This document shows positions 35,332-55,396 of a DNA stretch of 56,275 bases, one piece after another. Made by a program: the position numbers and the translations under genes. The notes beneath the pieces are model-generated. The model did no database searches, was not told the origin of the DNA, and worked only from the letters and a program-made list of their open reading frames with translations. The stretch comes from Mesorhizobium sp. (GTDB taxonomy: Bacteria; Pseudomonadota; Alphaproteobacteria; Rhizobiales; Rhizobiaceae), in the NCBI GenBank assembly GCA_022833215.1, contig JAIPUZ010000058.1, forward strand, positions 1-56,275. Direction: 5' to 3'. Each line of letters starts with the position of its first letter. Positions within the stretch are counted from its first letter, which is position 1.

Positions 35332-35351
35332 TGCCTCATACAGTCGTTGGG

Positions 35352-37412: not shown

Positions 37413-37438
37413 GCTTTTCCTCGAAAGTTCTTGATATT

Positions 37439-41084: not shown

Positions 41085-42143
41085 TTACTGGACCGAGAAT
41101 TCGGGCCGGTATCCATCCGGTGCAAAGATCTGGGTCGTGTCGATCTTCTCGACATTCTCCCCCGTAACGATGCCGGGAGCGACCAGAAGCACCTTTTCCA
41201 GCGGCTTGTTTTCAAGCGCGCGCACTGCGAGATCGACACCGATGCGGCCCATGATCACCGGGTATTCGGTGGCGAAGCCGAGCACCTGACCGTCCTTGAC
41301 GGCCTTGAGCATTGTCTGGTTCTCGTAGGACGACATGATCGTGACGCCATCGAGACCGGCGTCAGCCACAGCGCCGATGGCTGCCTCGGCGGTGGGAGCG
41401 CCACCCCAGATCACATTGATGTCGGGATAGGTTTGCAGGGCGTCTTCCACGAGTTGCAACTGGGCCGGCACGCTGGCCTCGCCGAACATCTCGGCCTGAA
41501 GCGTGACGTTGCCCGTCTTGGTGCTGTCGCGGAAACCGCTCATATAGGTCTCGGCCCAGCCGCTGCCCTGCGGGCCGGGGAAGGCCACCGCGCTGCCCTG
41601 CTTGTCGCCCAGATACGTCTTTACATACTCGCCCGTCTGGAAGCCCTTCTGATAAAAGTCGGGCGTGACACGGGCCGTGATCGGCGTTTCGAGGATCGGG
41701 TTGGCCACCGCGACATTGACGATGCCCTTGCCCATGCCCTCGCCGATCTTGGCTGCGACCCCCGCCTCCGAGATCGCCGAGATCAGGATGGCGTCGGCGC
41801 CTGAAGCCACGCAATCGTCATATTGGGAAATCTGCTTCGGAAGCGCCGTGTAGCCGCCCGCCTGGAAGACGGTGACCTTGACGCCGAGGCGCTTCGCCTC
41901 TTCCACGATGCCGTAGTTCACCGACACCCAGTAGCTGTCCTGAAGGTGCGGGAACAGCACGCAAAGCTTCCAGGGCTTCTCCGCCTTGTCGAGCGGCTCA
42001 TATTCGATGTCCTGAACGTTGTTGACATCGCCGTCCGTGGCCGAGGCGATCTTGAAGGGCCACCAGTCGGCCGCCTGCGCCATTCCCGCCGACAGAAGCG
42101 TTGCGGAGAGGGCCAGAGCCAGCGTTCTATTCAGTGCATTCAT
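41085..42143 (-). CDS. TorT-like periplasmic substrate-binding protein
   Basis: 352 residues with a signal peptide (cleavage after AQA, about residue 24) and a periplasmic-binding-protein type 1 fold: LCVLFPHLQDSYWVSVNYGI, AVANPILETPITARVTPDFY, GWAETYMSGFRDST. The mature start ADWWPFK and the length resemble TorT, the TMAO-sensing periplasmic protein, rather than ribose-binding proteins. There is no TorS/TorR here; the gene instead leads an RbsABC-type importer operon with hyuAB. First gene of the operon; two GTATCCA operator-like sites lie 60 and 122 nt upstream of its start. Confidence 0.85.
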   Translation of the reverse strand: MNALNRTLALALSATLLSAGMAQAADWWPFKIASATDGDVNNVQDIEYEPLDKAEKPWKLCVLFPHLQDSYWVSVNYGIVEEAKRLGVKVTVFQAGGYTALPKQISQYDDCVASGADAILISAISEAGVAAKIGEGMGKGIVNVAVANPILETPITARVTPDFYQKGFQTGEYVKTYLGDKQGSAVAFPGPQGSGWAETYMSGFRDSTKTGNVTLQAEMFGEASVPAQLQLVEDALQTYPDINVIWGGAPTAEAAIGAVADAGLDGVTIMSSYENQTMLKAVKDGQVLGFATEYPVIMGRIGVDLAVRALENKPLEKVLLVAPGIVTGENVEKIDTTQIFAPDGYRPEFSVQ

Positions 42144-42185: not shown

Positions 42186-42268
42186 ACAAATCAGGATTTG
42201 TATCCAAACTCGCCGCTTCTTCGTCGGCTACGCTTAATTTTCAGAATGTTATCGCGGATATGTATCCA
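42186..42268. promoter_or_regulatory. Paired GTATCCA operator-like sites upstream of the TorT-like gene
   Basis: Site a TTTGTATCCAAA (42197-42208) and site b GGATATGTATCCA (42256-42268) share the GTATCCA core in the same orientation, 62 bp apart. Site a also overlaps a perfect palindrome ACAAATC-AG-GATTTGT (42186-42201). Site b contains GGATA-TG-TATCC. The region is AT-richer than neighbouring DNA. The same pair arrangement recurs upstream of the E1 gene and between the PotF-like and VOC genes; the GntR regulator at 55475 is the candidate binder. Confidence 0.7.
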
Positions 42269-43096
42269 TTCTGGCATTATTTTGCCGGAAAATCCACCAC
42301 CTTCAACTTACATCTTATATGTTATGTGTCAATAAGTGGAACAATCCGGCGCGCTGATTGCAGGCAACCCGCCGCACCCTCGCGGATGCGCCGCAACCGG
42401 GCACATCGGCGGCGCGCGATCACCCGACCGGCCAGGTTGCGGGACACGTGAAGGATTGGCAGGCACACCCGGGCCGCACAGGATCGCGCCCCTTTCCCGA
42501 ATGCTGCCTCCGAGCGTGCGCATATGGTGAGCCGCATCCTTCCGGGACACCTTGCCGGCGACATGTGCACGGCCCGACGATGCCCGTTCAGCATGCAGCA
42601 CCTTTCCCGTTGCCCACACGCCCTGCTCCACAATCTCTGCGCGCATTCGTGTCCGGATGAAAACGGTATCGGACTTCCGCGGAACTCGGATGCGACGTCA
42701 TGAAAATCCCCGGTTGCATCACCTGAAAGGCAAGGATCCGGCATCGCTTTCCGCATCGCGACGGAAAAATGGATCCACCCTTGCCATTTGGTGTGTGATG
42801 CATCATGTTTCTTACAAGATGTGTTGTCAATGCACAAAATGCCGGAGGAGGAAGCGGAATGTGTGGGCACAGGCAGCCATCATGGCATCCCGGTTCTTCC
42901 GGCAGACTGCGCCCTGACGAGGCAAGCCGTGGCCATCTGAGCGCGCTCGGGTCCGTAAGGCCGGCATGCTCAAAGGCAAAAGCGCAAGGAACCCGACGCG
43001 CGGCAGACGGATACCGCGCGCCCGTCGCATGACGCATCTCCCGAAATTCACCGCCAACAGACTTCCCGGCCAGAAACAGACTTCCAAGGATGGCAC
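42269..43096. other. About 830-bp region without a supported gene
   Basis: Open frames on both strands (longest minus 42322-42870) have no recognisable family motif and no good ribosome site. An AT-rich patch at 42780-42850 with GATGCATC and nearby TTGTCA may hold the promoter of the FAD dehydrogenase gene at 43097. No GTATCCA pair is present here; only a lone GGATACC at about 43005 is seen. Confidence 0.45.
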
Positions 43097-44506
43097 ATGC
43101 CCGCAACGACCACCGCCTTCGATCTCGCCATGCAGGAATTGCTCGGAGAGCGGGGATGGCTCACGAAAGACGATGAAATCGCCGCGTACGCGCGCGACTG
43201 GCTGGACCGCTATGGTGTGCCCCCTCTCGGCCTTGCCCGGCCAGACTCGGCCGCGCAGGTCGTCGCGATCATGCGGGCCTGCGCCGAACACGGCGTCTGC
43301 GCGGTGCCGCAAGGCGGGAACACCGGCCTGAACGGCGCCAGCGTGGCAACCCACCGCTCCAGCATCATCGTTTCGATGGCGCGCATGAACAGGATCCTCG
43401 ACATCGACGCGATCGGCTACACAGCCACCGTGGAACCGGGCCTCGTGCTGGCCGCCCTCCACGATGCGCTGGCCGAACGCGACCTGGCATTTCCCCTGCA
43501 TCTCGGCGCCGAGGGCAGCGCCCGGATTGGAGGGCTGATCGGCACCAATGCCGGAGGCAGCCACGCCATGCGCTACGGAATGATGCAGGACCTTGTGCTC
43601 GGGCTTGAGGTGGTGCTGCCCGACGGTTCCATATGGGACGGGGCGCGCGCGCTGATAAAGGACAATGCGGGCTTTCAGCTGCGCAAGCTCTTCTGCGGCG
43701 CAGAAGGCACGCTCGGCATCGTGACGAAGGCCGTGTTGCGATTGTTCCCCGCGCCCACGGCCCGCGCCACGGCATTGCTGGCATTGCCGGACCTCGATGC
43801 CGCCCGGCAGACAGGCGCGCTCCTGCGCAGGCACGCCGGCGAGTTCCTTACCGCCATGGAGTTCTTCGGCGAGTTCGGCCTGTCTCTGACCCTGCGACAC
43901 GTCGAGGGGCTTTCGCGACCTCTGGAGACGCCCGGACCGGTCTACGTCCTCGTTGAGATCGCCACCTCAATTCCCGATATGCCGCTTTCCGAAATCCTGG
44001 AGCGTGCGCTTGAAGCCGCATTCGGGACAGGGGACGTTCTCGACGGCGCCGTCGCCGCCAGCGAAACGCAGCGCGCCGCATTCTGGAGGCTTCGGGAGGA
44101 CATGCCCGAGGGACAGCGTCTGGAAGGCAAACAGATCAAGCACGATGTCTCCGTACCCGTGGCGCGGCTCGCGGCATTCGTCGGCGAAGCATCGGCCGCA
44201 GCCGAAGCCGTGCTGCCGGGCGTGCGCGCAAACCCGTTCGGCCATCTCGGCGACGGCAACGTTCACTTCAATCTTTCACCCCCCGAGGGGCAGGCCGACT
44301 TCAGCGGGCGCGACGCACAGCTGTCCGAAGCCATCTACGATACGGTCGTCAGGAATGAAGGATCGATCGCCGCGGAGCACGGCCTTGGACAGGCGAAGAT
44401 CGGTCTCGCCGATCGCTGCCGCAGCAAGGTCGAGCGCGACCTCATGCGTCGTCTGAAGGCGGCCATCGACCCGGATGGCAGGATGAACCCCGGCAAAATC
44501 GTCTGA
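43097..44506 (+). CDS. FAD-linked D-2-hydroxyacid dehydrogenase (GlcD/D2HGDH family)
   Basis: 469-residue flavoprotein of the FAD-PCMH family that includes D-lactate dehydrogenase, GlcD and D-2-hydroxyglutarate dehydrogenase. FAD segment: GVCAVPQGGNTGLNGASVA (near 73-91) and HLGAEGSARIGGLIGTNAGG. Metal/substrate motifs: KHDVSVPVARL, NPFGHLGDGNVHFNL and EHGLGQAKIGL, all as in the D2HGDH branch. It would oxidise a D-2-hydroxyacid to the 2-oxoacid, passing electrons to a quinone or ETF-like acceptor. ATG 43097 has AAGGA upstream. Its product could feed the neighbouring 2-oxoacid dehydrogenase. Confidence 0.9.
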   Translation: MPATTTAFDLAMQELLGERGWLTKDDEIAAYARDWLDRYGVPPLGLARPDSAAQVVAIMRACAEHGVCAVPQGGNTGLNGASVATHRSSIIVSMARMNRILDIDAIGYTATVEPGLVLAALHDALAERDLAFPLHLGAEGSARIGGLIGTNAGGSHAMRYGMMQDLVLGLEVVLPDGSIWDGARALIKDNAGFQLRKLFCGAEGTLGIVTKAVLRLFPAPTARATALLALPDLDAARQTGALLRRHAGEFLTAMEFFGEFGLSLTLRHVEGLSRPLETPGPVYVLVEIATSIPDMPLSEILERALEAAFGTGDVLDGAVAASETQRAAFWRLREDMPEGQRLEGKQIKHDVSVPVARLAAFVGEASAAAEAVLPGVRANPFGHLGDGNVHFNLSPPEGQADFSGRDAQLSEAIYDTVVRNEGSIAAEHGLGQAKIGLADRCRSKVERDLMRRLKAAIDPDGRMNPGKIV

Positions 44507-44510
44507 AGAC

Positions 44511-44547
44511 GGAGTGCTGCGGCGCCCAGGGGCCCGCGCAGCACTCC
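44511..44547 (+). terminator. 11-bp hairpin after the FAD dehydrogenase gene
   Basis: GGAGTGCTGCG / CGCAGCACTCC with a 15-nt GC-rich loop, starting 4 nt beyond the stop codon. No T-tract follows, but position and stability favour a transcript end, separating this gene from the E1 promoter. Confidence 0.55.
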
Positions 44548-44647
44548 GGGATGTCCTGCCTGCCAGCGGGACGAACCTCCCAATCCATCGCACATTCCAG
44601 GGTGCTGCAGCATGCGTGCCGCACGATCCTTTCTGCTCTCACGGGTG

Positions 44648-44726
44648 ATTGTATCCAAAAATGCGTTTTCAGCAAACATGACGTTGTCTTTTTGGCCTTG
44701 ATCAGCATTATTGTATCCAATAAGTA
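44648..44726 (+). promoter_or_regulatory. E1 promoter with paired GTATCCA operator-like sites
   Basis: Site c ATTGTATCCAAAA (44648-44660) and site d TTATTGTATCCAATAA (44708-44723) are 62 bp apart in the same orientation. Site d is nearly palindromic: arms TTATTG/CAATAA around TATC. A sigma70-like promoter, TTGATC (44698-44703), 17-nt spacer and TAAGTA (44721-44726), places site d between -35 and -10, where a bound repressor would block polymerase. The E1 start codon lies about 70 nt downstream. Confidence 0.65.
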
Positions 44727-44788
44727 ATAAGGCAAGGCAGGGCGCGCGGATATCGCTGCATGCCTGCAAGCAAGGAAGAGGAGGTTCC

Positions 44789-46975
44789 ATGCCGGATCAT
44801 GTCGATCTGACGTCAGCTGCATCCTGGCGCGAATTGCACGCAACACGCGAGGACTGGTCGAATGCCGATCCGGCGGTGCTGGAATGGATGCTCGTGTCGT
44901 CGCATCTGATCCGCGCCTTCGAGGAAAAGGTTCTGGAACTCGCCGGTCAGGGGCTGGTCCATGGGCCCGCCCATTCGGCCATCGGTCAGGAGGGCGGAGC
45001 GGTCGGTTCGGCCGCGCTGATGCGCACGACCGATCAGGTGAACGGTTCGCATCGCGCGCATCATCAATTCCTCGCCAAGGCGATCCGCCACGTGACGCCT
45101 GACGGGCTGTCGACGGACACCGGCTTTTCCGGCGCGATACAACATCTGGCGCAGAAGTCGCTGGCCGAGATACTGGGTCTCGCCCAGGGCTTCTGCAAAG
45201 GACGTGGCGGCTCCATGCATCTGCGCTGGTCCGAAGCCGGGAATCTTGGCACCAACGCCATAGTGGGCGGGGGCGTGCCGCTGGCAGCCGGGGCCGCGTG
45301 GGCGCACAAGCGCGCGGGTCAGGGGGATGTGGCCTTCTCCTATTTCGGCGACGGGGCCGTCAACATCGGCTCTGTTCTCGAGACGATGAACCTGGCTGCG
45401 GCCTGGAAGCTGCCCCTCTGCTTCTTCATCGAGAACAATCGCTATGCCGTCTCGACGCATGTCGAAGAGGTTACCGCCGAGCCGCGGCTGGCCGCGCGGG
45501 GACAGGCGTTTGCCATCCCCTCATGGAAAGTGGACGGCATGGATCCTCTTGCCGTCTATCTGGCCACCCAGGAAGCGATGGAGGTGATGCGCGGCGGCGG
45601 CGGCCCGACCATCATTGAAGCCGATGTTTACCGCTTCTTCCATCAGAACGGCCCCCTCCCCGGCAGCGCCTTCGGCTATCGCGACAAGGCAGAGGAAACC
45701 GAATGGCGCGCGCGCGACCCGCTCGACCGCTTGTCCATGGAAATGCAGCAACGCCAGCTCATCGGCAGCGAGACGGTGGAGGCGCTGCGCCAGCGCGCGC
45801 AGGCGCTGATGGATGAAGTCGCAGGCGAACTGATGGAGGACAATGGCGGCAAGCGCCGGATTCGTCCCTCGCTCTGGCCCCGGGAGGATTTTCGCGACCA
45901 TGGCGTGCGCGGCGATCTGTCCGAGTTTGCCGGTGTCCGCACCGCGGAACTGGAGACATTCCAGGGCGCGATAAACCACAATGCGAAGTTCATAGACGTC
46001 GTGGCGAATGTCATGCACCGCCGCATGGAGGCAGATTCGCGCATCGTCGTCCTCGGCGAGGACGTCCACAGGCTCAGGGGCGGAACCAACGGGGCGACAC
46101 GCGGCCTTGCCGCCGCCTGGCCGGACAGGATTCTCGGCACGCCGATTTCCGAAAACGCATTCACCGGACTGGCCGGCGGCATCGCGATGGACGCACGTTA
46201 CCGGCCGGTGGTCGAATTCATGTATCCCGACTTCATATGGGTCGCTGCCGACCAGCTCTTCAACCAGATCGCCAAGGCCCGGCATATGTTCGGCGGCGAT
46301 ATGGACGTGCCGCTTGTGCTGCGCACCAAGGTCGCCATGGGCACAGGATACGGCTCGCAGCATTCCATGGATCCGGCAGGCATCTTCGCCACCTCGCCCG
46401 GCTGGCGCATCGTCGCGCCTTCGACGCCCTTCGACTATGTGGGCCTGATGAACAGCGCCCTGCTGTGCAGGGACCCCGTCATCGTCATCGAGCATGTCGA
46501 TCTCTACAACTCGACCGGCCCTGCCCCCGAAGACGACCTCGACTATTTCATCCCGCTCGGCAGGGCCAGGGTCGTCCGGCCCGGCGCCTCGATGACGGTG
46601 CTGACCTATCTCGGCATGGTGCAGCAGGTGGTCGATGCGGCCGGGCGTCTCGGCATCGACGCCGAGGTGATCGACCTGCGTTCCCTCGACCGGGCTGGAC
46701 TGGACTGGGAAACGATCGAAAACTCGGTCCGCAAGACAGGCAACGTGCTGGTGGTGGAACAGGGCGCGCTCGGCACCTCCTACGGAGGGATGATCGCTGC
46801 CGAAATCCAGAACCGCTGCTTCGACTGGCTGGATCAGCCGGTGCAGCGCGTGCATGGCGGCGAAGCCTCGCCCAGCATCTCCAAGGTTCTGGAAGCTGCC
46901 GCCTGTACACGCCCCGCCGACATCGAGCATGGCCTGCGGCGCGTCATGGCCGAGCAGGGCCGCCCGCTGAGCTGA
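44789..46975 (+). CDS. 2-Oxoacid dehydrogenase E1, fused alpha and beta subunits
   Basis: 728-residue thiamine-diphosphate enzyme. The alpha part (residues ~30-370) has the TPP motif GDGAVNIG to ENN (about 188-216); the beta part starts near residue 395 (AINHNAKFIDVVANVMHRRM) and includes VVLGEDVHRLRGG and the usual C-terminal transketolase domain (VLTYLGMVQQVVDAAGRLGI). Separate alpha and beta genes are normal for acetoin, pyruvate and branched-chain dehydrogenases, so this is a fusion. It would decarboxylate a 2-oxoacid or acetoin. GAAGAGGAGG precedes the ATG. The E2 gene follows 24 nt downstream; no E3 is in the window. Confidence 0.9.
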   Translation: MPDHVDLTSAASWRELHATREDWSNADPAVLEWMLVSSHLIRAFEEKVLELAGQGLVHGPAHSAIGQEGGAVGSAALMRTTDQVNGSHRAHHQFLAKAIRHVTPDGLSTDTGFSGAIQHLAQKSLAEILGLAQGFCKGRGGSMHLRWSEAGNLGTNAIVGGGVPLAAGAAWAHKRAGQGDVAFSYFGDGAVNIGSVLETMNLAAAWKLPLCFFIENNRYAVSTHVEEVTAEPRLAARGQAFAIPSWKVDGMDPLAVYLATQEAMEVMRGGGGPTIIEADVYRFFHQNGPLPGSAFGYRDKAEETEWRARDPLDRLSMEMQQRQLIGSETVEALRQRAQALMDEVAGELMEDNGGKRRIRPSLWPREDFRDHGVRGDLSEFAGVRTAELETFQGAINHNAKFIDVVANVMHRRMEADSRIVVLGEDVHRLRGGTNGATRGLAAAWPDRILGTPISENAFTGLAGGIAMDARYRPVVEFMYPDFIWVAADQLFNQIAKARHMFGGDMDVPLVLRTKVAMGTGYGSQHSMDPAGIFATSPGWRIVAPSTPFDYVGLMNSALLCRDPVIVIEHVDLYNSTGPAPEDDLDYFIPLGRARVVRPGASMTVLTYLGMVQQVVDAAGRLGIDAEVIDLRSLDRAGLDWETIENSVRKTGNVLVVEQGALGTSYGGMIAAEIQNRCFDWLDQPVQRVHGGEASPSISKVLEAAACTRPADIEHGLRRVMAEQGRPLS

Positions 46976-46999
46976 TCCCATCACAGATTGGAACCCGGA

Positions 47000-48256
47000 A
47001 TGCCTATCGAGATCAGGATGCCGGCCCTTTCGGCTGGAATGGAGCACGGAACGCTGGCCCGCTGGCTGAAGCGGGAGGGTGATGGCGTCGTGAAAGGCGA
47101 TGTCATCGCCGAGATCGAGACGGACAAGGCGACGATGGAGCTGGAGGCGACCGAAGCAGGCCGCATCGGACGGTTGCTCGTCGGGGACGGGACGGCGGAT
47201 GTGCCTGTTGACGGGGTCATCGCACTGCTGCTGCGGGATGGCGAAACCCTGCCGCCCGAGAGCGCCGCTCCTGCGGATGGCGCCACGCCACCGGCAATGG
47301 CCGTACCGATACGCAATGACGGGGAAACGCAGGCAAAGCCGGCTGCCCCGGTCGCAGGCGCGCGCGGTCCGCACGCCTCGCCGCTGGCTCGCCGCATTGC
47401 GGCGCAACACGGCCTCGACCTGTCACAACTGGCTGGCAGCGGACCGAACGGCCGGATCGTCCGGATCGACGTCGAGCAGGCCCACATGGTGGCGACAACG
47501 ACGCTGGCAGCGGAAGAAAGCGCGGGGTCGAATATTATCGCATCGGGGCCGGGCCGGGATGTGGTCGACGCAGGCTATACGCGTGTGCCGCATAGCAGCA
47601 TCCGCAGGACCATCGCCCGCCGGCTGACGCAATCCAAATCCACTGTTCCGCACTTCTATCTGAAGACAAGCTGCGAGGTCGATGCGCTGCTGGCCCTCAG
47701 GGCGCAGATAAATGCCATGCGCGACCCTGCCGACAGGGTTTCGGTGAACGATTTCGTGGTGAAGGCCGCTGCACTGGCATTGCGCCGCGTTCCGGCCGCA
47801 CATGCGATCTGGACGGACGAGGCCATGCTGGTGCCGGAGAGCATCGACATCTCGGTGGCCGTGGCGACCGAAGGCGGCCTGATCACGCCGATCGTGAGGC
47901 ACGCGGACGAGAAAAGCCTCGGCACGCTCTCGCGTGAGATCAGGGAACTGGCCGCGCGCGCCCGCGAAAATCGCCTGAAGCCTGCGGAGTACCAGGGGGG
48001 AAGCTTCTCGGTTTCCAATCTTGGAATGTACGGCGTCAGTGAGTTTGCCGCGATCATCAACCCACCGCAAAGCTGCATTCTGGCGGTCGGGGCAGCCGAA
48101 CGTCACCCCGTATGCAAGGGCGACGATATCGTTGTGGCGACGGTCATGAACTGCACCCTCTCGGTGGATCACCGCGCGGTCGACGGCGCCGTGGGCGCGC
48201 AGCTTATCGGCGCCTTCAGGGAACTCATCGAGACCCCGCTGATATTGCTGACCTAG
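47000..48256 (+). CDS. 2-Oxoacid dehydrogenase E2 (dihydrolipoamide acyltransferase)
   Basis: 418 residues with the classical three-part layout: an N-terminal lipoyl domain with the lipoylated lysine in EIETDKATME (Lys43), a peripheral subunit-binding domain (ASPLARRIAAQHGLDLSQL, about 119-150), and a catalytic core ending in the acyltransferase motif SVDHRAVDG (His about 390). It takes the acyl group from the E1 product to CoA. The ATG at 47000 follows the E1 stop by 24 nt. E3 must come from elsewhere. Acyl specificity (acetyl, from acetoin or pyruvate, or branched) cannot be read reliably. Confidence 0.92.
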   Translation: MPIEIRMPALSAGMEHGTLARWLKREGDGVVKGDVIAEIETDKATMELEATEAGRIGRLLVGDGTADVPVDGVIALLLRDGETLPPESAAPADGATPPAMAVPIRNDGETQAKPAAPVAGARGPHASPLARRIAAQHGLDLSQLAGSGPNGRIVRIDVEQAHMVATTTLAAEESAGSNIIASGPGRDVVDAGYTRVPHSSIRRTIARRLTQSKSTVPHFYLKTSCEVDALLALRAQINAMRDPADRVSVNDFVVKAAALALRRVPAAHAIWTDEAMLVPESIDISVAVATEGGLITPIVRHADEKSLGTLSREIRELAARARENRLKPAEYQGGSFSVSNLGMYGVSEFAAIINPPQSCILAVGAAERHPVCKGDDIVVATVMNCTLSVDHRAVDGAVGAQLIGAFRELIETPLILLT

Positions 48257-48516
48257 GGCAATTCCAGCGAAAGTGCGAAGCGGTTTTGCGTTCGGAAACG
48301 CGTAAAAACAAAGGTTAGAGCGTTTCTGCGATTCGAAGAAAGGCGCAAAGGCTCCAGGACATGACGCCCGCAGCCGACTTCCGGTTGCGCGCGTCATGCA
48401 CGGGACAACAGCCTGGAGCTGGCCCGGAAAAAGTGCGGCGCGGTTTTGAACAGAATCGCGCACGCAAGGCATGTCCGGGTTTCCGGACAGATCCCATGAA
48501 AACGGATCGCGACGGA
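48257..48516. repeat. Convergent intergenic region with interspersed and nested inverted repeats
   Basis: Between E2 (plus) and the PotA-like gene (minus). AAAGTGCGAAGCGGTTTTGC near 48270 and a diverged copy AAAAGTGCGGCGCGGTTTTG near 48428 resemble the dispersed repeat seen in Hyphomicrobiales. Between them are nested inverted repeats: GCTCCAGG (48351-48358) with CCTGGAGC (48412-48419), and inside these ATGACGC (48361-48367) with GCGTCAT (48391-48397). TTAGAGCGTTTC at about 48315 resembles the IS630 terminal sequence but no transposase accompanies it. Confidence 0.6.
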
Positions 48517-49593
48517 TCAGTCGCTTGCGAACAGGTGGCCGTCCTCGGGATTCCAGCCGATATCGACGGTGTCTCCGACCTGCGGGCGGTTCTTGTCGAA
48601 AGCCGCGATCTTCACCATTGCGATCTGGCCGCCGCCGAGATCGACCAGCATGCGCAACTGGTCGCCCAGATAGGCCAGCTCGGTGACCCTGGCGGAAATC
48701 CGGTTGGCAAGCCCTTCGGCGTCCTGATTCAGCCCCATCTTCTCCGGCCGTACAGCCAGCGTAACCGGTCCGCTACCCGACCACGGGCACGCGACCGAAA
48801 CGACTGTGCCTGAAGACAGGCGAACAGCGGTCAGATTCCCTGGCGAGGCTTCGATGCTGCCGGACAACAGATTGTTCTCGCCGACGAAGCCGGCAACATA
48901 GGCGTCGGACGGCTTCTCATAGATGTCGCCCGGCGGCGCGATCTGCGCGATGTCTCCGGCATGGAACACTGCCACGCGATCGGACATGGTGAGCGCTTCG
49001 GACTGATCGTGCGTCACATAGACGACGGTGACGCCCAGTTGGCGATGCAGCTCCCTGATCTCGAACTGCATATGCTCCCGCAGATTCTTGTCGAGCGCTC
49101 CCAGAGGCTCATCCATCAGCACCAGTTCCGGCTTGAATATAAGCGCGCGCGCGAGCGCTACACGCTGCTGCTGGCCGCCGGACAGCATTGCGGGCTTGCG
49201 GTCTTCCATGCCATCCAGCCGCACCATGCTGATGGCGCGCCTGACCTCCTCCTCAACGCCGGCGCGCTTCATGCCCCGCATGCGCAGCGGATAGGCAAGG
49301 TTTTGCGCCACCGTCATATGCGGAAACAGCGCATAATTCTGGAAGACGACGCCGATGCCGCGCCGATGTGGCGGCAGATGCTCTATCGGCGCTCCATTCA
49401 TACGAATAGCGCCGCTGGTCGGCTCCTCGAAGCCGGCCAGCATCATCAGCGTCGTTGTCTTGCCGGAACCGGAGGCGCCGAGCAGGGTCAGGAACTCGCC
49501 ACGGCAGACCGTGAGATCGAGACCGCGAATGACCGCATGGCGGCCATAGCTTTTCGTGATCTTGTCGAATTCGATAAGCGCTTCAGCCGCCAT
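48517..49593 (-). CDS. potA: Spermidine/putrescine-type ABC transporter ATP-binding protein (PotA-like)
   Basis: 358-residue ATPase. Walker [10 protein letters not shown] (39-47), signature [15 protein letters not shown], Walker [13 protein letters not shown] and a C-terminal TOBE domain ([20 protein letters not shown]) are intact. The class energises import of polyamines, opines, iron or small organic molecules through PotB/PotC permeases. ATG 49593 is used; a GTG codon just before it is in frame but adds one residue. It is last in an operon running from 54496, after the aminotransferase and SDR genes, an unusual position for the ATPase. Confidence 0.92.
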
Positions 49594-49639
49594 CACAAGG
49601 TAGCTCCAGAGATATTCGTCCGGCAGGACGCTGAGAAAG

Positions 49640-50428
49640 TCATGCTGGGGTGTTTTCGGCGCCGGCCGCTGAAGGCGGCGTCATGAAACCTGCCGTTTCG
49701 CCGCCATCGACCGTGAGCGCAACACCGTTGATGAAGGATGAGGCCGGCGACAGGAGCCAGCTCACGGCTTCGGCCACATCCTCCGCATTCCCGAGACGAT
49801 GGACCGGGATCCGGGCCTCCAGCATCTGCCTGCGTCCGGGGATTTCCAGTGTCCTTCCCATCATGCGGGTGGCGATCTGGCCCGGGCAGATGGCGTTGAA
49901 GCGAACCTGCGAGCCATATTCGAGCGCAAGGGCATATGTGAGGCCGATCAGCGCCGCTTTCGAAGCGGTGTAGATGGCAAGGCCCTGCTCCCCGACCAGC
50001 CCGGCAATGGACGACATCATGACCACCGCGCCGCCACCGGCGCGCAGCCCCTGAAGGGCATGGCGGGTGAACAGAAAGGCCGAAGTGGTGTTCACCTTCA
50101 TGATATGGTTCCAGTCGTCGAGCGTCGCGTGGTCGAAGGCCATGCGCGCACCGACACCGGCATTGTTGACGAGGCCGGAAAGCCGCCCGCCACCGAGGTC
50201 GAGGGCTGCGTCCACAGCCCGCCTGCAATCCGCCTCGACCGAGGCATCGCCTGCCACGAACACGGAGAGGGGAATCTCCGCGGCCAGAGCCTGCCCGGCC
50301 TCGCGGTCGCGGCCGGTGAACACGACGCGCGCGCCCTCGTCCGCCAGCTTGCGCACGCAGGCCGCGCCGATGCCATGAGTGCCGCCGGTGACGAGAACGA
50401 CACGGGGTGCGGCTGGAACCTCGCTCAT
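49640..50428 (-). CDS. Short-chain dehydrogenase/reductase (SDR)
   Basis: 262-residue NAD(P)-dependent enzyme. The cofactor motif is TGGTHGIG (14-21); NNAGVGA, the catalytic Ser in MMSSIAGL and YTASK (Tyr about 154, Lys about 158) are all present. It oxidises or reduces an alcohol/ketone pair. The ATG at 50428 overlaps the aminotransferase stop (ATGA), so both are translated together. Its place inside the ABC importer operon suggests it modifies the imported compound or its deaminated product. A longer open frame to 50488 lies in the aminotransferase gene. Confidence 0.92.
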   Translation of the reverse strand: MSEVPAAPRVVLVTGGTHGIGAACVRKLADEGARVVFTGRDREAGQALAAEIPLSVFVAGDASVEADCRRAVDAALDLGGGRLSGLVNNAGVGARMAFDHATLDDWNHIMKVNTTSAFLFTRHALQGLRAGGGAVVMMSSIAGLVGEQGLAIYTASKAALIGLTYALALEYGSQVRFNAICPGQIATRMMGRTLEIPGRRQMLEARIPVHRLGNAEDVAEAVSWLLSPASSFINGVALTVDGGETAGFMTPPSAAGAENTPA

Positions 50429-51345
50429 GCTGCGGTTTCCGTGTAGTCGACCGTTGTGCAGAGCCAGCCGTCTTCCTTGCGCCCCCAATAGAGGTCGTGG
50501 ATGCGGTTGGTGATCGATCCGGGCCGGCCATTGCCATAGATGCGGCCATCCAGTTCGGTGACCGGCATGATGCCACCGGCGGTGCTGGTGATGAAGATCT
50601 CGTCGGCGCCGCGCAGTTCGTCGGCGCTGACCGGCCGGATCTCGCAGGCGATGCCGGCTTCCCCGGCAAGCTCGATCACGGTCCGCCGCGTCATGCCCTC
50701 GAACACGCCCCGGTCCGGCGTCGCCAGAACGCCGTCGCGAACCGCGAACACGTTGAACCCGGCCCCTTCGGTGATGTTGCCGTCCCGGTCGATCAGCACC
50801 GCCACGACGGCGTCGCGGTCGTAGGCTTCGAAGATACCCCCGGTGAGGTCGAGCCAGTGAAAGTTCTTGATGCGCGGATCGACCGCCTCGGGCTGGATGC
50901 GTTGCACGGAGCTTATCACCATCTTGAGCCCGTCCCGGCGCTGCTCCTCATTGGCGATCCATACGAAGGGCTGGGCGAAAGCATAGAAGCGGTTCTGGCA
51001 AAGCCTCGGATCACGCGTACCGCGCGGCGGCACGCCCCGCGTGCAGGTCATCTGCACATAGGCATCCCGCAGGCCGCTGCGGCGCACGCACTCGATAAGG
51101 ATGTCGGCGATTTCCTGCGCGGAATAGGGCAGGCTCATGCGCAACCCCTTCATCGACTGCTGGAAGCGCTCGATATGATCGTCCAGGCGGAAGAAGCGCC
51201 CCTTCCAGACATGCGCCACATCGTAGGTGGCGTCCGAGCGGACGAAGCCGCGATCGGTCAGCGGTATGCTGGCTTTCGCCAAAGGCATGTAAACACCGTC
51301 AATGAAGGCAACGCCGTCAGCCGGATCGAATTGCGTTTCAGTCAT
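50425..51345 (-). CDS. Class IV aminotransferase (D-amino acid aminotransferase-like)
   Basis: 306-residue PLP enzyme of fold type IV, like D-amino acid aminotransferase, branched-chain aminotransferase and (R)-amine transaminases. The PLP lysine is in RIKNFHWLDL (about Lys160), and the family loops GNITEGAGFNVFAVRDGVLATP and ITSTAGGIMPVTELDG are present. It interconverts an amino acid or amine and a 2-oxoacid. The stop overlaps the SDR start and its ATG lies 8 nt inside the permease end (51338), so it is translationally coupled. Such a gene inside a Pot-type importer operon suggests that the imported substrate carries an amino group. Confidence 0.9.
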   Translation of the reverse strand: MTETQFDPADGVAFIDGVYMPLAKASIPLTDRGFVRSDATYDVAHVWKGRFFRLDDHIERFQQSMKGLRMSLPYSAQEIADILIECVRRSGLRDAYVQMTCTRGVPPRGTRDPRLCQNRFYAFAQPFVWIANEEQRRDGLKMVISSVQRIQPEAVDPRIKNFHWLDLTGGIFEAYDRDAVVAVLIDRDGNITEGAGFNVFAVRDGVLATPDRGVFEGMTRRTVIELAGEAGIACEIRPVSADELRGADEIFITSTAGGIMPVTELDGRIYGNGRPGSITNRIHDLYWGRKEDGWLCTTVDYTETAA

Positions 51346-52153
51346 TCTTGTTCGTCCTGTTCGAATTGGTTCGCATGAGAAGGCTGGCAGAGATGAGCGT
51401 CAGAACCGCAATGCACATCAGGAATGTCGCCATTGCCAGAATGGACGGATCGATGTTGTCGCGGATGCCCTCGAACATCTTGAGCGGCAGGGTGCGCTGG
51501 ACGGGGCCGGCGATGAACAGCGTCACCACCACTTCGTCGAAAGAGGTCGCGAAGGCAAACAGGGCCCCAGACAGGATGCCCGGCGCCATGATCGGAACCA
51601 GAACGTTGAGGAAGGCGCGTGCGGGCGATGCGCCGAGGCTGGCAGCGGCCTGCATGAGCTTCAGGTCGAAACCCTGAAGCGTGGCGCTCACCGTGATCAA
51701 CACGAAGGGAGTGGCCAGAACGGCATGGGCGACCACCACCCCCGCCAGCGTGGAGGTCAGGCCGAGGCGCGAGAACGCGAAATAGAGGCCGAGCCCGGTG
51801 ATGACGGGCGGCACGATCATCGGGGCGATAAGAAGACCCAGCAAGGTCGTCGGGAACGGCAGATGCCCGCGCGCGAAGGCATATGCGGCCAGCGTACCGA
51901 GCGGGGTCGCAATCAGGGTGGACAACAGGCCGATCAGCAGGCTGTTCCACAGCGCGCTCAGCCACGGCCCGTCGAGAAAGACCTTCTCGTACCACTGCAT
52001 GGAGAAGCCGGGCAGCGGATAGCTGAGGAAGCTTCCGGCGCTGAATGAGATCGGGACGGCTGCCAGCAGTGGCAGGATCAGCACCAGCATCATCAGGACG
52101 CCGAAGACGACATGGGCCATACTTCCGATGCGGGCCAGGAACCGGTAGGACAT
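51338..52153 (-). CDS. potC: Spermidine/putrescine-type ABC transporter permease (PotC-like)
   Basis: 271-residue inner-membrane permease with six helices; the coupling motif EAAASLGASPARAF (here QAAASLGASPARAFLNVLVPIM, near residues 175-195) identifies the type I ABC importer family. It follows the PotB-like gene by 9 nt and overlaps the aminotransferase start by 8 nt, so expression is coupled. It forms the channel with the PotB-like subunit. Confidence 0.9.
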   Translation of the reverse strand: MSYRFLARIGSMAHVVFGVLMMLVLILPLLAAVPISFSAGSFLSYPLPGFSMQWYEKVFLDGPWLSALWNSLLIGLLSTLIATPLGTLAAYAFARGHLPFPTTLLGLLIAPMIVPPVITGLGLYFAFSRLGLTSTLAGVVVAHAVLATPFVLITVSATLQGFDLKLMQAAASLGASPARAFLNVLVPIMAPGILSGALFAFATSFDEVVVTLFIAGPVQRTLPLKMFEGIRDNIDPSILAMATFLMCIAVLTLISASLLMRTNSNRTNKND

Positions 52154-52162
52154 GCGTTTCTC

Positions 52163-53413
52163 CTACCTCAGGCCGGCGATCTGACGCACGCCGACGGTGC
52201 GGCCGGCAAGAAGATAAAGCGCCAGCACGCAGACGAGGAGCATCAGGCCGAGGGCGGACGCCAGCCCCCAGTTGACCGAGGTATAGGCGTAGAAGGCGAC
52301 GAAATAGCCGAGCATCTGTTCCCGCGGACTGCCCACAAGCGAAGGCGTGATGTAGTAGCCGGCGGAAACGATGAAGGTAAGCAGCGCACCGGCGCCGACG
52401 CCGGGCAGGCTCATCGGCAGATAGACATGGAAGAAGCCGCGCGCAGGGTTGGCTCCAAGCGAGGACGAAGCCTTCATGTAGTGCGAGGGAATACCCTTCA
52501 TGGTGCTGTAAAGCGGCAGGACCATGAAAGGCAGCATCATGTGCGCCATGACGATATAGAGCCCCGTGGCGTTGAAGATGAGCTGGAGCGGAGACGAGAC
52601 GATGCCGCTCCAGATCAGGAGCTTGTTGAGCGGTCCCTGCTCCTGAAGGATGACGATCCACGAGGACGTCTTGGCCAGCAAGGATGTCCAGAACGGAAGC
52701 ATGACAGCGCCCAGCAGCATGAACGCGAAGTTGCGGCCCGATTTGACCATCAGCGCGGCGAAAGGATAGCCGAGAGCCAGACAGATCAGGGTGGTGACGG
52801 CCGCGACCTTCAGCGTTCGCATCAACACCGCCACATAGGTGCGCTGGTTCTCCGGCACCATGCCGATGCTGCCGTCGGCAGCCTGTCGCATATCGAGCGC
52901 CGACAGGATATAGAATGGCGTGTGGGCCGGTGCGGCGCGCCTGATCGCCTGCCAGGTTTCGATGTCGCCCCAGCGCCCGTCCATGCCAATAAGGCGCTCC
53001 CGCCAGTTCCCGGCATCGTCGGCGGATTTCTTCACGGCCCGCTCCGTGGACACGAGCAGCGAGCGAAACCCGCCAACCTCGTAATTCAGCCGCCGCGCAG
53101 CGGCAGCCACTGCGCGCGTGCGCTCCGGGCTCTTTTCGGACAGGTCCTGCGCGAGCGCGTCGAAGACCTCGCCGCCCGGCAGGTTCCGGTCTGCGGGATG
53201 CCATCCCGCCAGGGCCAGGCTGGTGCGTGGCAGGCCCGTCGAAACCTCGGGGCTTGCCACCGCATTGGTGAGGATGGTGACAATCGGCAGCAAGAAAACG
53301 ACAATGGTGAAGATCAGCAGCGGGGCGACCAGAAGCAGCGATGTGACCCGGCGCCTGTTCAGCCTTCTGTGGCCGGCTTCCTTGTCTGCTTCTGACCTCG
53401 CTGCCGTGATCAT
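52163..53413 (-). CDS. potB: Spermidine/putrescine-type ABC transporter permease with large periplasmic insertion (PotB-like)
   Basis: 416 residues; the first helix is TSLLLVAPLLIFTIVVFLLPIV (about 24-45), then a hydrophilic insertion of about 140 residues (52-195) faces the periplasm before the remaining five helices. The coupling motif KASSSLGANPARGFFHVYLP is present. Typical PotB is about 280-310 residues, so this belongs to the longer subgroup seen in many Hyphomicrobiales. The insertion might contact the binding protein or gate the channel. ATG 53413 is used. It is 39 nt after the binding-protein gene. Confidence 0.9.
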   Translation of the reverse strand: MITAARSEADKEAGHRRLNRRRVTSLLLVAPLLIFTIVVFLLPIVTILTNAVASPEVSTGLPRTSLALAGWHPADRNLPGGEVFDALAQDLSEKSPERTRAVAAAARRLNYEVGGFRSLLVSTERAVKKSADDAGNWRERLIGMDGRWGDIETWQAIRRAAPAHTPFYILSALDMRQAADGSIGMVPENQRTYVAVLMRTLKVAAVTTLICLALGYPFAALMVKSGRNFAFMLLGAVMLPFWTSLLAKTSSWIVILQEQGPLNKLLIWSGIVSSPLQLIFNATGLYIVMAHMMLPFMVLPLYSTMKGIPSHYMKASSSLGANPARGFFHVYLPMSLPGVGAGALLTFIVSAGYYITPSLVGSPREQMLGYFVAFYAYTSVNWGLASALGLMLLVCVLALYLLAGRTVGVRQIAGLR

Positions 53414-53452
53414 CTGACCTGTCGCCCTCCCTGATGTTGCCGGAAACGGACC

Positions 53453-54496
53453 TTACCGCGCCACCCAGTTGGAGAAGCGCTCCGTCAGCTCCTGCCCGTG
53501 ATCGATCCAGAAGCCGCTGTCGAGCTTGATGGCCTCCTTCAGGTTGTCGGGGGCGGACGGAAGGATAGCCAGCACCTCGGGATCGAGCTCGGCCATCGCC
53601 TTCTGGTTGGCGATGCCGTACGGGATCGTTTCGGCAAAGCGCTTCTGCGGAGCAGTCGAGTTCATGTAGTCGACGAGGTCCACGGCCTGATCGTGGTTAG
53701 GGCTGTCGTTTATGATGGCCCAGTAGTCGACGCTGTAGAGCTGCTGGTTCCACACGACCGGGAAGTTCCGTCCCTCGCCCTGCGCCGTGGTGATGCGGCC
53801 GTTGAACGCGGCGGTCATGGTCACCGAGCCGGCGGCAAGCCATTCCAGCGGCTGGGCGCCGCTTTCCCACCACTGGATATCGGGCTTCAGCTCGTCCAGC
53901 TTGGCAAAGGCGCGATCCTGCCCTTCGGGTGTGGCAAGGACCTTGTAGACATCGGCCCGGGCCACACCGTCCGCCATGAGTGCCAGCTCCAGCGTGAGCT
54001 TGGCGGTCTTGCGCAGGCCGCGCTTGCCGGGCCACTTCTCCGTATTCCAGAAATCAGCCCACGATGCGGGGCCATCCTTGATCTTGTCGGCATCGAAGGT
54101 CAGCACCTCCGACCACACGATTGCGCCGACGCCGCATTCGGTGAACATGGCGGGATCGCTGTCCTTGTAGCTGGATAGGGTCGCCCAGTCGACATCGGCG
54201 AGCAACCCCTCGCTGCAGGCGATCGCCAGCTCGTCCTCTTCCATCTGGACGACATCCCAGGTCACATTGCCGGTCTCGACCATCGCCTTCTGCTTGGCCA
54301 GTCCGCCATTGGTCGTGTCTTCGATGAATTTGATGCCCTTTTCAGCGGCATAGGGCTCCCAGTAGGCCGACCGGTATGCGTCCTGAACCGAACCGCCAAA
54401 CCCAACGACCGTCAGATCGCGAGCATGGGCGCCGAAGCTGGTGCCGACGAGAGCCGTCAGCATCAGAGCGCCCGTCAACTTGCCGGAAATTTTCAT
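53453..54496 (-). CDS. Polyamine/opine-type ABC transporter substrate-binding protein (PotD/PotF-like)
   Basis: 347-residue periplasmic binding protein. Signal peptide MKISGKLTGALMLTALVGTSFGAHA (cleavage about residue 25), then the fold opening LTVVGFGGSVQDAYRSAYWEP and MEEDELAIACSEGLL. It presents its ligand to the PotBC channel. GAAGGAGGAAGC just before the ATG at 54496 is a strong ribosome site. First gene of the operon; a promoter with TTGACA lies at 54651-54679 and the GTATCCA pair beyond it. A precise ligand cannot be stated. Confidence 0.92.
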   Translation of the reverse strand: MKISGKLTGALMLTALVGTSFGAHARDLTVVGFGGSVQDAYRSAYWEPYAAEKGIKFIEDTTNGGLAKQKAMVETGNVTWDVVQMEEDELAIACSEGLLADVDWATLSSYKDSDPAMFTECGVGAIVWSEVLTFDADKIKDGPASWADFWNTEKWPGKRGLRKTAKLTLELALMADGVARADVYKVLATPEGQDRAFAKLDELKPDIQWWESGAQPLEWLAAGSVTMTAAFNGRITTAQGEGRNFPVVWNQQLYSVDYWAIINDSPNHDQAVDLVDYMNSTAPQKRFAETIPYGIANQKAMAELDPEVLAILPSAPDNLKEAIKLDSGFWIDHGQELTERFSNWVAR

Positions 54497-54650
54497 GCTT
54501 CCTCCTTCATAAAGATTGCTCGCCTCAACTCGCGTCGGCGCCACCATGCGGAAGACCGGCAAGCGACGGCCACGACAGGGGCCGCGGCCGGGAGACCTGT
54601 TCCGTCCTCAAATGGATGAGCTGCCTCCCAGCCCCCTCGGACAGGTTGAA

Positions 54651-54679
54651 GGTTAAGCTTCGCTCCTTACCACTGTCAA
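54651..54679 (-). promoter_or_regulatory. Putative promoter of the PotF-like importer operon
   Basis: On the minus strand TTGACA (54679-54674) is a perfect -35 box, followed after 17 nt by TTAACC (54656-54651) as a weak -10. Operator-like site e (54683-54694) sits a few bases upstream of the -35 box. Confidence 0.45.
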
Positions 54680-54682
54680 CAC

Positions 54683-54756
54683 ATTGGATACATTTTTGCA
54701 AATTTAAGGCATTTCGTTGAGCATAACCTTGCTTTTGTTGAATGATTGGATACCTT
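54683..54756. promoter_or_regulatory. Paired GTATCCA operator-like sites between PotF-like and VOC genes
   Basis: On the minus strand both sites read GTATCCA. Site e is ATTGGATACATT on plus (54683-54694) and site f ATTGGATACCTT (54745-54756); their cores are 62 bp apart in the same orientation. The AT-rich region is shared by the divergent PotF-like operon and the VOC-gntR pair, so one regulator could control both. Confidence 0.7.
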
Positions 54757-54823: not shown

Positions 54824-55396
54824 ATGCCACAGACAACCGACCTTGCAGCCGATCACAGCAAGCAGGAAAACGGCGTGCCGGGGCTCGCCGGCACCGACCA
54901 TATCGGCTTCACCGTGCCGGATCTGGACGAAGCGGTTGCATTCTTCGTCGACGTCATCGGCTGCGAGCCGTTCTACGAGCTCGGCCCGTTCCAGTCCGAT
55001 GGCGACTGGATGGAGAAGCATCTCGACGTCCATCCGCGCGCGGTAATGAAGCGGCTCAGATTCCTGCGCTGCCGCAACGGATCGAATTTCGAGATCTTCG
55101 AATATGCCGCACCGGATCAGAACAGCCGCCAGCCCCGCAACAGCGACGTCGGCGGCCACCATCTGGCATTCTATGTCGACGACATCGATGCGGCGGTCGC
55201 CTATCTGAAGACGAAGGGCGTTCGCGTGCTGGGCGAGCCGACCGTGCGGAAAGAAGGACCGAGCGCCGGGCAGAGCTGGGTGTACTTTTTGTCGCCCTGG
55301 GGCATGCAGCTCGAGCTGGTTTCGTTCCCGCAGGGGAAGGCCTATGAACGCGAAACCTCGCGCAGATTGTGGCATCCCGCAAGCCCGGTCTCGTAG
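54824..55396 (+). CDS. VOC/glyoxalase-bleomycin resistance family protein
   Basis: 190-residue metalloenzyme of the vicinal oxygen chelate fold (glyoxalase I, extradiol dioxygenase, fosfomycin resistance and methylmalonyl-CoA epimerase-type). Probable metal ligands are His26 in TDHIGFTVPDLD, a His in GGHHLAFYVDD near 107 and Glu in MQLELVSF near 163. The reaction is not determined. The ATG at 54824 is chosen; an ATG at 54801 is in another frame. Its promoter region is shared with the PotF-like operon, and it is followed 78 nt later by the GntR regulator. Confidence 0.85.
   Translation: MPQTTDLAADHSKQENGVPGLAGTDHIGFTVPDLDEAVAFFVDVIGCEPFYELGPFQSDGDWMEKHLDVHPRAVMKRLRFLRCRNGSNFEIFEYAAPDQNSRQPRNSDVGGHHLAFYVDDIDAAVAYLKTKGVRVLGEPTVRKEGPSAGQSWVYFLSPWGMQLELVSFPQGKAYERETSRRLWHPASPVS

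Follow-up and report, generated by a model that had tools for sequence, protein, structure and literature searches.

Helical phase, with a best period of about 10.6 bp, is the quantity conserved between paired putative operator sites in promoters that accompany a GntR/FCD regulator gene of Mesorhizobium sp. and its relatives: exceptions apart, two like operators per promoter are spaced by whole helical turns. What stands out is this phasing of the pairs across the regulon; one looping GntR tetramer (Atu1419) and double sites of GntR-family regulators are known already from the published work cited below.

A sequence-only reading of the window (the whole analysed stretch, 56,275 nucleotides) had reported three GTATCCA pairs, each at 62 bp, and a direct motif count bore this out, with start-to-start distances of 62 bp for 42200 and 42262 (plus strand), 44651 and 44713 (plus strand), and 54685 and 54747 (minus strand). 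Its gene names were correct by family searches of the window proteins. Genes and operators are as follows.

33526..40955, minus strand, sugar-type ABC ATPase, permease genes (family search on one of them) and hydantoinase/caprolactamase-like HyuA and HyuB
41085..42143, minus strand, TorT-like periplasmic binding protein, heads the importer/hyuAB operon (family search)
42197..42208, plus strand, first operator at the torT/ABC/hyuAB promoter, TTTGTATCCAAA, centred on 42202.5 (GTATCCA match, matrix, orthologous sites aligned)
42259..42270, plus strand, second operator at the torT promoter, TATGTATCCATT, centred on 42264.5, 62 bp away from the first
44648..44659, plus strand, first operator at the E1-E2 promoter, ATTGTATCCAAA, centred on 44653.5 (GTATCCA match, matrix, orthologous alignment)
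44710..44721, plus strand, second operator at the E1-E2 promoter, ATTGTATCCAAT, centred on 44715.5, 62 bp away from the first
44789..46975, plus strand, fused E1 alpha/beta 2-oxoacid dehydrogenase (family search)
46988..48256, plus strand, E2 acyltransferase of 2-oxoacid dehydrogenase (family search)
48517..53413, minus strand, remainder of the divergent operon: two permeases, class IV aminotransferase, SDR, ABC ATPase with TOBE domain
53453..54496, minus strand, solute-binding protein (SBP_bac_8, PotD-like), heads the divergent ABC/aminotransferase/SDR operon (family search)
54683..54694, minus strand, operator of the divergent potD / VOC-gntR region, AATGTATCCAAT, centre 54688.5
54745..54756, minus strand, second operator of the same region, AAGGTATCCAAT, centre 54750.5, 62 bp from the other
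54824..55396, plus strand, VOC (glyoxalase-superfamily) protein, upstream of gntR (family search)
55475..56164, plus strand, GntR/FCD transcription regulator, 229 aa, proposed operator binder (family search, fold, homologues)

The operator is a 12-bp imperfect palindrome, ATTGKATMCAAT, and perfectly palindromic sites are found in Citricoccus (ATTGGATCCAAT) and M. denitrificans (ATTGTATACAAT). Direct-repeat recognition of the NanR type is not favoured, because ATTG..CAAT has dyad symmetry and perfect palindromes exist. Using a 12-position matrix, trained on sites from 62-64-bp pairs that are partly the window's own, exactly six window sites scored at least 12.5 bits, all inside the three pairs, the top score of any window site being that of the second E1-E2 operator. 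GTATCCA itself was matched eight times in the window against 2.1 expected from shuffles (at least eight in 1 of 100 shuffles), the unpaired copies lying at 29276 and 41109. The own genome (4.55 Mb, 131 contigs) was searched with the pattern GTATCCA-N{40,70}-GTATCCA, giving three matches, all at 62 and all in the window, and two for the reversed-pattern control; 62-bp pairs were found nowhere else in this genome-wide count, and same-strand GTATCCA pairs 47-77 bp apart were confined to the same three.

Alignment of orthologous promoters showed that motif and pairing are kept at the torT, E1 and VOC promoters of Mesorhizobium-type loci, with sites 62-64 bp apart and intervening DNA less conserved than this spacing. 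Every one of the 19 genomes or plasmids scanned that encode a regulator at least 47% identical to the 55475 product (own genome included), from Mesorhizobium through Rhodococcus, Citricoccus and Streptomyces, has at least one pair near that gene, and 18 of them have a whole-turn pair. The fixed 62 bp proposed earlier holds in the window, and as 62-64 bp in near relatives, but exact 62 bp is not the conserved quantity because spacings elsewhere range from 52 to 95 bp (52, 61, 64, 73-74, 83 or 93-95 bp). Shared orientation within a pair, true of the window, does not extend to a general rule and is not required, because inverted pairs occur in Ochrobactrum, G1531 and G886. Pairs that had not been sought emerged from the scan upstream of a Rhodococcus SSADH gene (62 bp), an SSADH-like gene of Streptomyces (73 bp) and an MFS gene of Citricoccus (52 bp).

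Phase was analysed in a locus scan of 569,303 bp, comprising 28 loci around gntR homologues and not confined to promoters; acidobacterial and Novosphingobium homologues (33-43% identity), which stand outside the orthologue group proper, were included. Excluded were Nonomuraea L060 (gntR match short and in pieces), second copies of the same genomes (L008, L027, L028 and L030), and the near-duplicates L034 (G821) and L058 (second Streptomyces), which have the same spacings (31, 52, 83, 223 and 63, 73). The scan yielded 151 sites and, at distances of up to 250 bp, 60 pairs; five block shuffles gave 17-46 sites and 0-1 pairs. In-phase pairs, defined as within 1.5 bp of 62.5 + 10.5k, made up 48 of the 60 (about one third expected by chance) and 33 of 45 after removal of the five matrix-training loci. 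When the near relatives G876 and G887 were also removed, and only pairs of at most 130 bp whose two sites each scored at least 11 bits were kept, 20 of 22 were in phase, and 13 of 15 outside 61-64 bp; the two 52-bp pairs of Citricoccus fall slightly below 11 bits and are uncounted in this strict subset. In a hand-collapsed list, the best period was 10.65 bp for 28 pairs of up to 130 bp, 11.05 bp when the long spacings 161 and 219 were added, and 10.60 bp for the 15 pairs outside 60-65 bp, with a simulated p of about 2e-4, phase p-values being optimistic because part of the promoters are orthologues of one another and a site can belong to more than one pair. Twelve of the 60 pairs were out of phase, the strongest in the E1 promoter of G1531 (161 bp; 17.7 and 16.8 bits) and the others involving weak, intragenic or long-spaced sites; Novosphingobium homologues (43% identity) had out-of-phase pairs only. 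The earlier idea of a helix-governed spacing, which cooperative or looping binding on one face would require, is supported by the phase in relatives.

The product of 55475 has an N-terminal GntR winged helix (PF00392, 2.1e-19) and a C-terminal FCD domain (PF07729, 4.3e-25), both above the gathering score. The FCD metal-site residues D141, H145, H191 and H213 are present in 21 of 24 compared proteins, the window's among them; in the two Novosphingobium homologues the first of these is Gly, and the match to the acidobacterial homologue reaches no further than the first two. Twenty-two NCBIfam GntR equivalog families (PhnR, NanR, LldR and others) match the protein, none at its cut-off, the best being phnR_burk with 103.6 bits against a cut-off of 271.5. 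By Foldseek, the predicted fold is nearer to PmiR, Atu1419 and McbR than to FadR, with PmiR ahead and Atu1419 chains at ranks 2-8. Membership of the FadR (fatty-acid regulator) group was rejected, the first FadR appearing at rank 41 with a TM-score of 0.48. The model has six or seven FCD helices, depending on how a break at 168 is counted (VanR group: six).

The pairs, whose conservation, phasing and association with the regulator gene were all read from sequence, are probably operators of a small catabolic regulon under the GntR/FCD protein at 55475. One regulator dimer would bind each 12-bp palindrome, and two dimers on the same DNA face, separated in most cases by 5 to 9 helical turns (by 6 in the own genome), would touch, most likely forming a dimer of dimers. 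This contact would bend the intervening DNA into a very short loop covering or flanking the core promoter. In its unliganded state the regulator would repress its own operon along with those of the importer, the 2-oxoacid dehydrogenase and the aminotransferase, and a carboxylate at the FCD metal site may be the ligand that releases repression. Against the loop stand its length, 62 bp being short for a tetramer, and the fact that GntR proteins are mostly reported as dimers. A bolder form, which we consider somewhat unlikely, would make the regulator a helical ruler, a short oligomeric spiral on one DNA face with the core promoter locked in a loop as small as 52-64 bp; its basis is that sites are spaced in steps of near-whole turns (about 3, 5, 6, 7, 8 and 9), at times with three in succession. 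If true, it would be a regulon-wide micro-loop architecture across Pseudomonadota and Actinomycetota, with drifting spacing and orientation.

Ownership of the sites by another DNA-binding protein is very unlikely. Negative controls are few, which leaves some room for it, but comparative evidence ties the pairs to the GntR/FCD gene at 55475 as the sequence-only reading had suggested: besides the pairs in 19 of 19 genomes or plasmids, a direct 61-64-bp GTATCCA pair is found within the genus Mesorhizobium in 6 of 9 genomes with the regulator versus 6 of 137 without it (one pair in each of those six). The 33%-identical acidobacterial homologue has a perfect site at its 5' end (centre 9958.5, match from residue 22 at 10013). 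Residue 58, in the recognition region, varies with the central site bases, being Leu in three regulators with GGATCC paired sites and Ile or Val in others; GGATCC sites also occur alongside Ile58 in Streptomyces and as the third site of RhizMAG E1. Three promoter regions of the same enzyme genes, from sequence stretches, short of whole chromosomes, that hold no regulator orthologue, gave 0 sites; L076, which shares its Rhodococcus plasmid with L016, and the Phaeobacter stretches upstream of E1, VOC and amt4, which are inside operons, were dropped as controls.

Other readings accept the regulator and dispute the contact. Independent dimers might be kept in phase because RNA polymerase or a DNA-bending protein lying between them needs both on one face, through steric effects or joint contact with polymerase; we regard this as unlikely, less so than foreign ownership of the sites. 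The 61-64-bp spacings that dominate are about promoter length, DNA between the window sites is AT-rich (G+C 31-46% versus 64% window-wide), and a promoter-like TTGACA-N17-CAACAT was read by eye between the Rhodococcus SSADH sites. Against this, the spacings span 32 to 95 bp and almost always approach whole turns, which a single polymerase-centred geometry would hardly accommodate, and a sigma-70 consensus scan of the three window regions (0, 1 and 0 matches) gave no promoter match lying between the sites on the strand of the gene. The single match is on the strand opposite E1 and overlaps the 44713 site, with none on the plus strand in 44500-44800, so that the earlier placing of this site inside a putative promoter was not borne out. 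It is most improbable of all that each site serves its own promoter in divergent operons or tandem promoters, the spacing being a historical accident. Some pairs do lie between divergent genes (window potD/VOC; Ochrobactrum E1/VOC), and independent sites form the larger FadR-subfamily double-site class (71 of 100 divergons in PMC4494728), but independent sites require no helical phasing, the window E1 pair lies behind a co-directional gene, 74-136 bp upstream of E1, and the torT pair, 60-122 bp upstream of torT, has its nearest neighbouring gene on the far side about 830 bp away.

GntR/FCD proteins make up one of the most populous regulator groups in bacteria, and the customary picture of them is a simple dimeric road-block. 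A regulon with mostly phased pairs, in which distance has changed in whole turns, is natural evidence for cooperative or looping control, its promoters are ready-made material for testing such control, and its operator motif is usable for an uncharacterised catabolic pathway. Operators whole helical turns apart, with same-face cooperative binding or looping, are also a feature of lambda CI and Lac repressor, whose protein families are unrelated to GntR. The effector domain of AraR of Bacillus subtilis differs from that of FCD regulators. AraR resembles the proposed system in its GntR-type DNA-binding domain, cooperative operator pairs and looping (cited in PMC4494728). Atu1419 of Agrobacterium fabrum (GntR/FCD, VanR group, PDB 6z74 and others) is called the first tetrameric GntR/FCD protein in PMC7797058, where the tetramer loops DNA by electron microscopy and represses its own gene and a catabolic pathway. 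It shares with the 55475 product the FCD fold, being among the nearest Foldseek folds, and with the present loci short palindromic operators, two per region (PMC7797058). Its sites (ATGTATACAT) are 190 bp apart, or 109 bp in a second region with one degenerate site (same source), whereas window-type pairs are mostly 52-95 bp apart, helically phased and present at several promoters per genome. Constant-distance double sites were described for FadR- and HutC-subfamily divergons by Suvorova et al. 2015 (PMC4494728), with two palindromic sites, proposed cooperativity and 29 FadR-subfamily divergons in the class; the phasing seen here differs in extending over one orthologue group in two phyla, non-divergent promoters included. 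The double site had been thought unusual for a FadR-type repressor; by itself it is not, because such sites are common for FadR-subfamily regulators in the same paper, and it is the regulon-wide phasing that does stand out. In the main text of PMC4494728, 'phase', 'periodic' and 'face of' were not found, and 'helical', where shown, refers to protein structure or a reference title. Searches of the open PMC literature gave no GntR regulator by title for the motif letters among the matches listed, no match containing the word GntR for GntR with phasing or same-face, and, for the window gene set, no description of the regulon in titles or abstract starts among the matches listed. Other matches were papers on Atu1419, NanR and AlkR.

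A third site at the midpoint (31 bp) of every pair was rejected, such sites occurring in single cases, at RhizMAG torT (weak) and in G848 (32 bp). A site was sought and not found in the E1 promoters of G848, G886 and a Parvularculaceae MAG. Three sites in a row were seen at RhizMAG E1 and in G848.

The heptamer GTATCCA was present in eight copies in the window (expectation from shuffles, 2.1), and six of these form three same-strand pairs with a spacing of exactly 62 bp.

42200/42262, same strand: GTATCCA pair 1, 62 bp
44651/44713, same strand: GTATCCA pair 2, 62 bp
54685/54747, same strand: GTATCCA pair 3, 62 bp

These pairs had been claimed in the sequence-only reading, and their positions were reconfirmed in the sequence; its gene assignments (a TorT-like importer with HyuAB, a fused E1 and an E2, and VOC-gntR divergent from a PotD-like operon) were correct. 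The genome-wide count of 62-bp pairs that it had proposed was performed with the pattern GTATCCA-N{40,70}-GTATCCA on the whole genome (4,548,661 bases, 131 contigs) and returned three matches, all of them the window pairs and all at 62 bp; a reversed control pattern gave two matches in the same genome.

Orthologous promoters were aligned, and both operators were conserved, with less conserved intervening DNA containing some recurring words; the exact 62-bp distance did not hold. The torT, E1 and VOC promoters of M. plurifarium, a Hyphomicrobiales MAG, Mesorhizobium B2-7-1 and M. denitrificans each carried two sites 62–64 bp apart, and spacings in a Rhizobiaceae MAG were 93 (torT), 95 (E1) and 63 bp (VOC). 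One partner departed from GTATCCA by one base, its place being kept, in the E1 promoter of fetched locus L006 and the VOC promoters of L007 and L008.

In all, 569,303 bp from 28 loci under 21 labels were scanned with a symmetric matrix, for which the training set was 26 sites of 62–64-bp pairs (window and L004–L007). Sites of at least 8.5 bits numbered 151 (five block shuffles: 17–46), and pairs within 250 bp numbered 60 (shuffles: 0–1). Pairs were taken as in phase when spaced within 1.5 bp of 62.5 + 10.5k, i.e. at whole helical turns; this applied to 48/60, where chance would give about one third. The other 12 were in genomes G876 (54 bp), G848 (223), G294 (39, within the E1 gene) and G1531 (141, 203, 161, 18 and 44), in Salipiger (33) and in Novosphingobium (91, 89 and 80). 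With the training loci excluded (15 of the 60 pairs), 33/45 were in phase; with G876 and G887 also excluded, 27/38 (20/31 outside 61–64 bp). When those 38 were restricted to pairs no longer than 130 bp whose two sites each scored at least 11 bits, 20/22 were in phase (13/15 outside 61–64 bp). All 19 labels having a regulator of at least 47% identity to the window's GntR/FCD protein at 55475 had at least one pair, and 18 of the 19 had one that was in phase and spaced by at most 130 bp; spacings in Salipiger were 33 and 219 bp only.

The period was fitted on a hand-collapsed list of 30 pairs. The best period was 10.65 bp (R 0.83) for the 28 pairs of 130 bp or less and 10.60 bp (R 0.76) for the 15 of these outside 60–65 bp, the simulated p of about 2e-4 being optimistic, as are all the phasing p-values, because the promoters are related by descent. 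Keeping the two long spacings gave 11.05 bp (R 0.79), and an earlier count of 21 promoters had given 10.6 bp without and 10.9 bp with the 161-bp outlier. The phasing rule is broken most clearly by the G1531 E1 promoter (L070 14000-14162), whose two strong sites are inverted and separated by 161 bp (15.3 turns).

Across lineages, E1 upstream spacings were 52, 62–64, 83, 95 and 161 bp, and E1 upstream regions of G848, G886 and Parvularculaceae were without a pair. Spacings upstream of SSADH genes were 62 bp in Rhodococcus and 73 bp in Streptomyces, where the SSADH-like gene scored 713 bits on the SSADH model (cut-off 730). These pairs and one before an MFS gene would extend the candidate regulon in Actinomycetota.

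L016 16235-16298: phased pair before SSADH gene, Rhodococcus
L017 13006-13080: phased pair before SSADH-like gene, Streptomyces
L015 14756-14809: phased pair before MFS transporter gene, Citricoccus

Three sites in a row, 31–32 and 51–52 bp apart and 83 bp overall, were seen in G848 (L033 8690-8774) and G821 (L034 11867-11951), some 1.4 kb ahead of an rbsA-like gene.

The operator generalises in relatives to the imperfect palindrome ATTGKATMCAAT. Most have the core GTATCC; G294, Citricoccus and Rhodococcus have GGATCC, and Streptomyces has both. The claim of shared orientation within pairs held in the window and failed as a general rule, with inverted pairs seen in Ochrobactrum (at 83 and 61 bp), at torT of G1531 (62 bp) and at VOC of G886 (62 bp). 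With orientation varying across relatives, the uniform orientation in the window is a local feature of a site that is nearly symmetric.

Homologues of the GntR/FCD regulator at 55475 were found at seven loci with identities of 70–79% (five), 53% (one) and 33% (one), and the five closest all have operator pairs. Plasmid-borne homologues (48–54% identity) were present in Ochrobactrum, Salipiger, Citricoccus, Rhodococcus and Streptomyces. The regulator gene belongs to the accessory genome, being found in at least 9/146 genomes of the genus, 5/394 of the family, 2/397 of the order, 1/385 of the class and 1/378 of the phylum (own genome included; threshold 1e-50, order 1e-60), these counts being lower bounds from scoring the best first-look candidates. 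Of the genus genomes that have the regulator, 6/9 contained direct GTATCCA pairs at 61–64 bp, 18 pairs altogether, of which 17 lie in the cluster; of those lacking it, 6/137 did, with one pair each. The reversed control pattern matched 5/146. The remaining regulator genomes, G821, G848 and G886, had sites that were inverted or at other spacings.

The negative controls were few, namely three promoter regions with no regulator orthologue in the fetched stretch, their chromosomes lying outside view: best site scores were 5.1 bits at the Phaeobacter plasmid torT promoter, 0.8 bits in the Streptomyces YIM 121038 E1/VOC region and 1.7 bits in that of Paenarthrobacter. No sites were found upstream of the VOC genes of L076 (on the same plasmid as a regulator), L078, L079 (each with one site of at least 12.5 bits elsewhere) and L081. 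At residue 58, which falls in the recognition region, the three GGATCC users have Leu and the other regulators Ile or Val, with Ile58 and GGATCC together in Streptomyces and at one Rhizobiaceae MAG site; in this small sample, the covariation with the central operator bases is no more than suggestive.

On Phaeobacter inhibens plasmid p1 (L075, L082), the same set of genes for importer, HyuAB, aminotransferase, VOC and E1-E2 is clustered; the adjacent GntR gene is a different one (29% identical), and these operators are absent. The pathway may therefore have changed regulators there.

Same-face sites at variable whole-turn spacing are the signature of protein–protein contact between two bound dimers. 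In predicted fold (mean pLDDT 80) the regulator most resembled PmiR and Atu1419; McbR followed closely, and FadR was distant. Atu1419 is described as a tetramer in which each dimer binds a palindrome and the DNA is looped between sites 190 bp apart (PMC7797058). Given the phased spacing, the fold near Atu1419 and the looping of that tetramer, the favoured model is that two regulator dimers, each on one site, would join as a dimer of dimers, with the intervening DNA bent into a short loop. Self-regulation is typical of catabolic clusters, and site centres in the window lie 60–136 bp upstream of the torT, E1 and VOC start codons; repression is therefore the likely outcome of the predicted binding, although a promoter scan of the window found no clear promoter. 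The FCD metal residues are kept, so that a carboxylate ligand is plausible, and HyuAB, a class IV aminotransferase and a 2-oxoacid dehydrogenase suggest that the pathway may run from a lactam-like compound through an amino acid to a 2-oxoacid.

Constant-distance double sites of GntR-family regulators are already known, having been described for 29 FadR-subfamily divergons with cooperative action proposed (PMC4494728); a word search of the main text of that paper gave no 'phase', 'periodic' or 'face of'. A search of open papers on phasing and same-face sites yielded no GntR paper, and none of the papers listed by two further searches was seen to describe the present regulon.

By eye, TTGACA-N17-CAACAT was seen between the two Rhodococcus SSADH sites. 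In the alignments of Mesorhizobium-type torT, E1 and VOC promoters, TTGGCA/TTGCCA-like words recur between the two operators; they may represent −35 boxes or be bound by another factor. Beyond the second torT operator, the block CATCTTATATnTTATRTGTCAA (42311-42332) was matched in six of eight aligned torT promoters (window, L004, L005, L006, L029 and L031; not L007 or L008); it occurs once in the window's genome with up to three mismatches allowed, and could contain a −35 box (TTGACA) or a site for some other factor.
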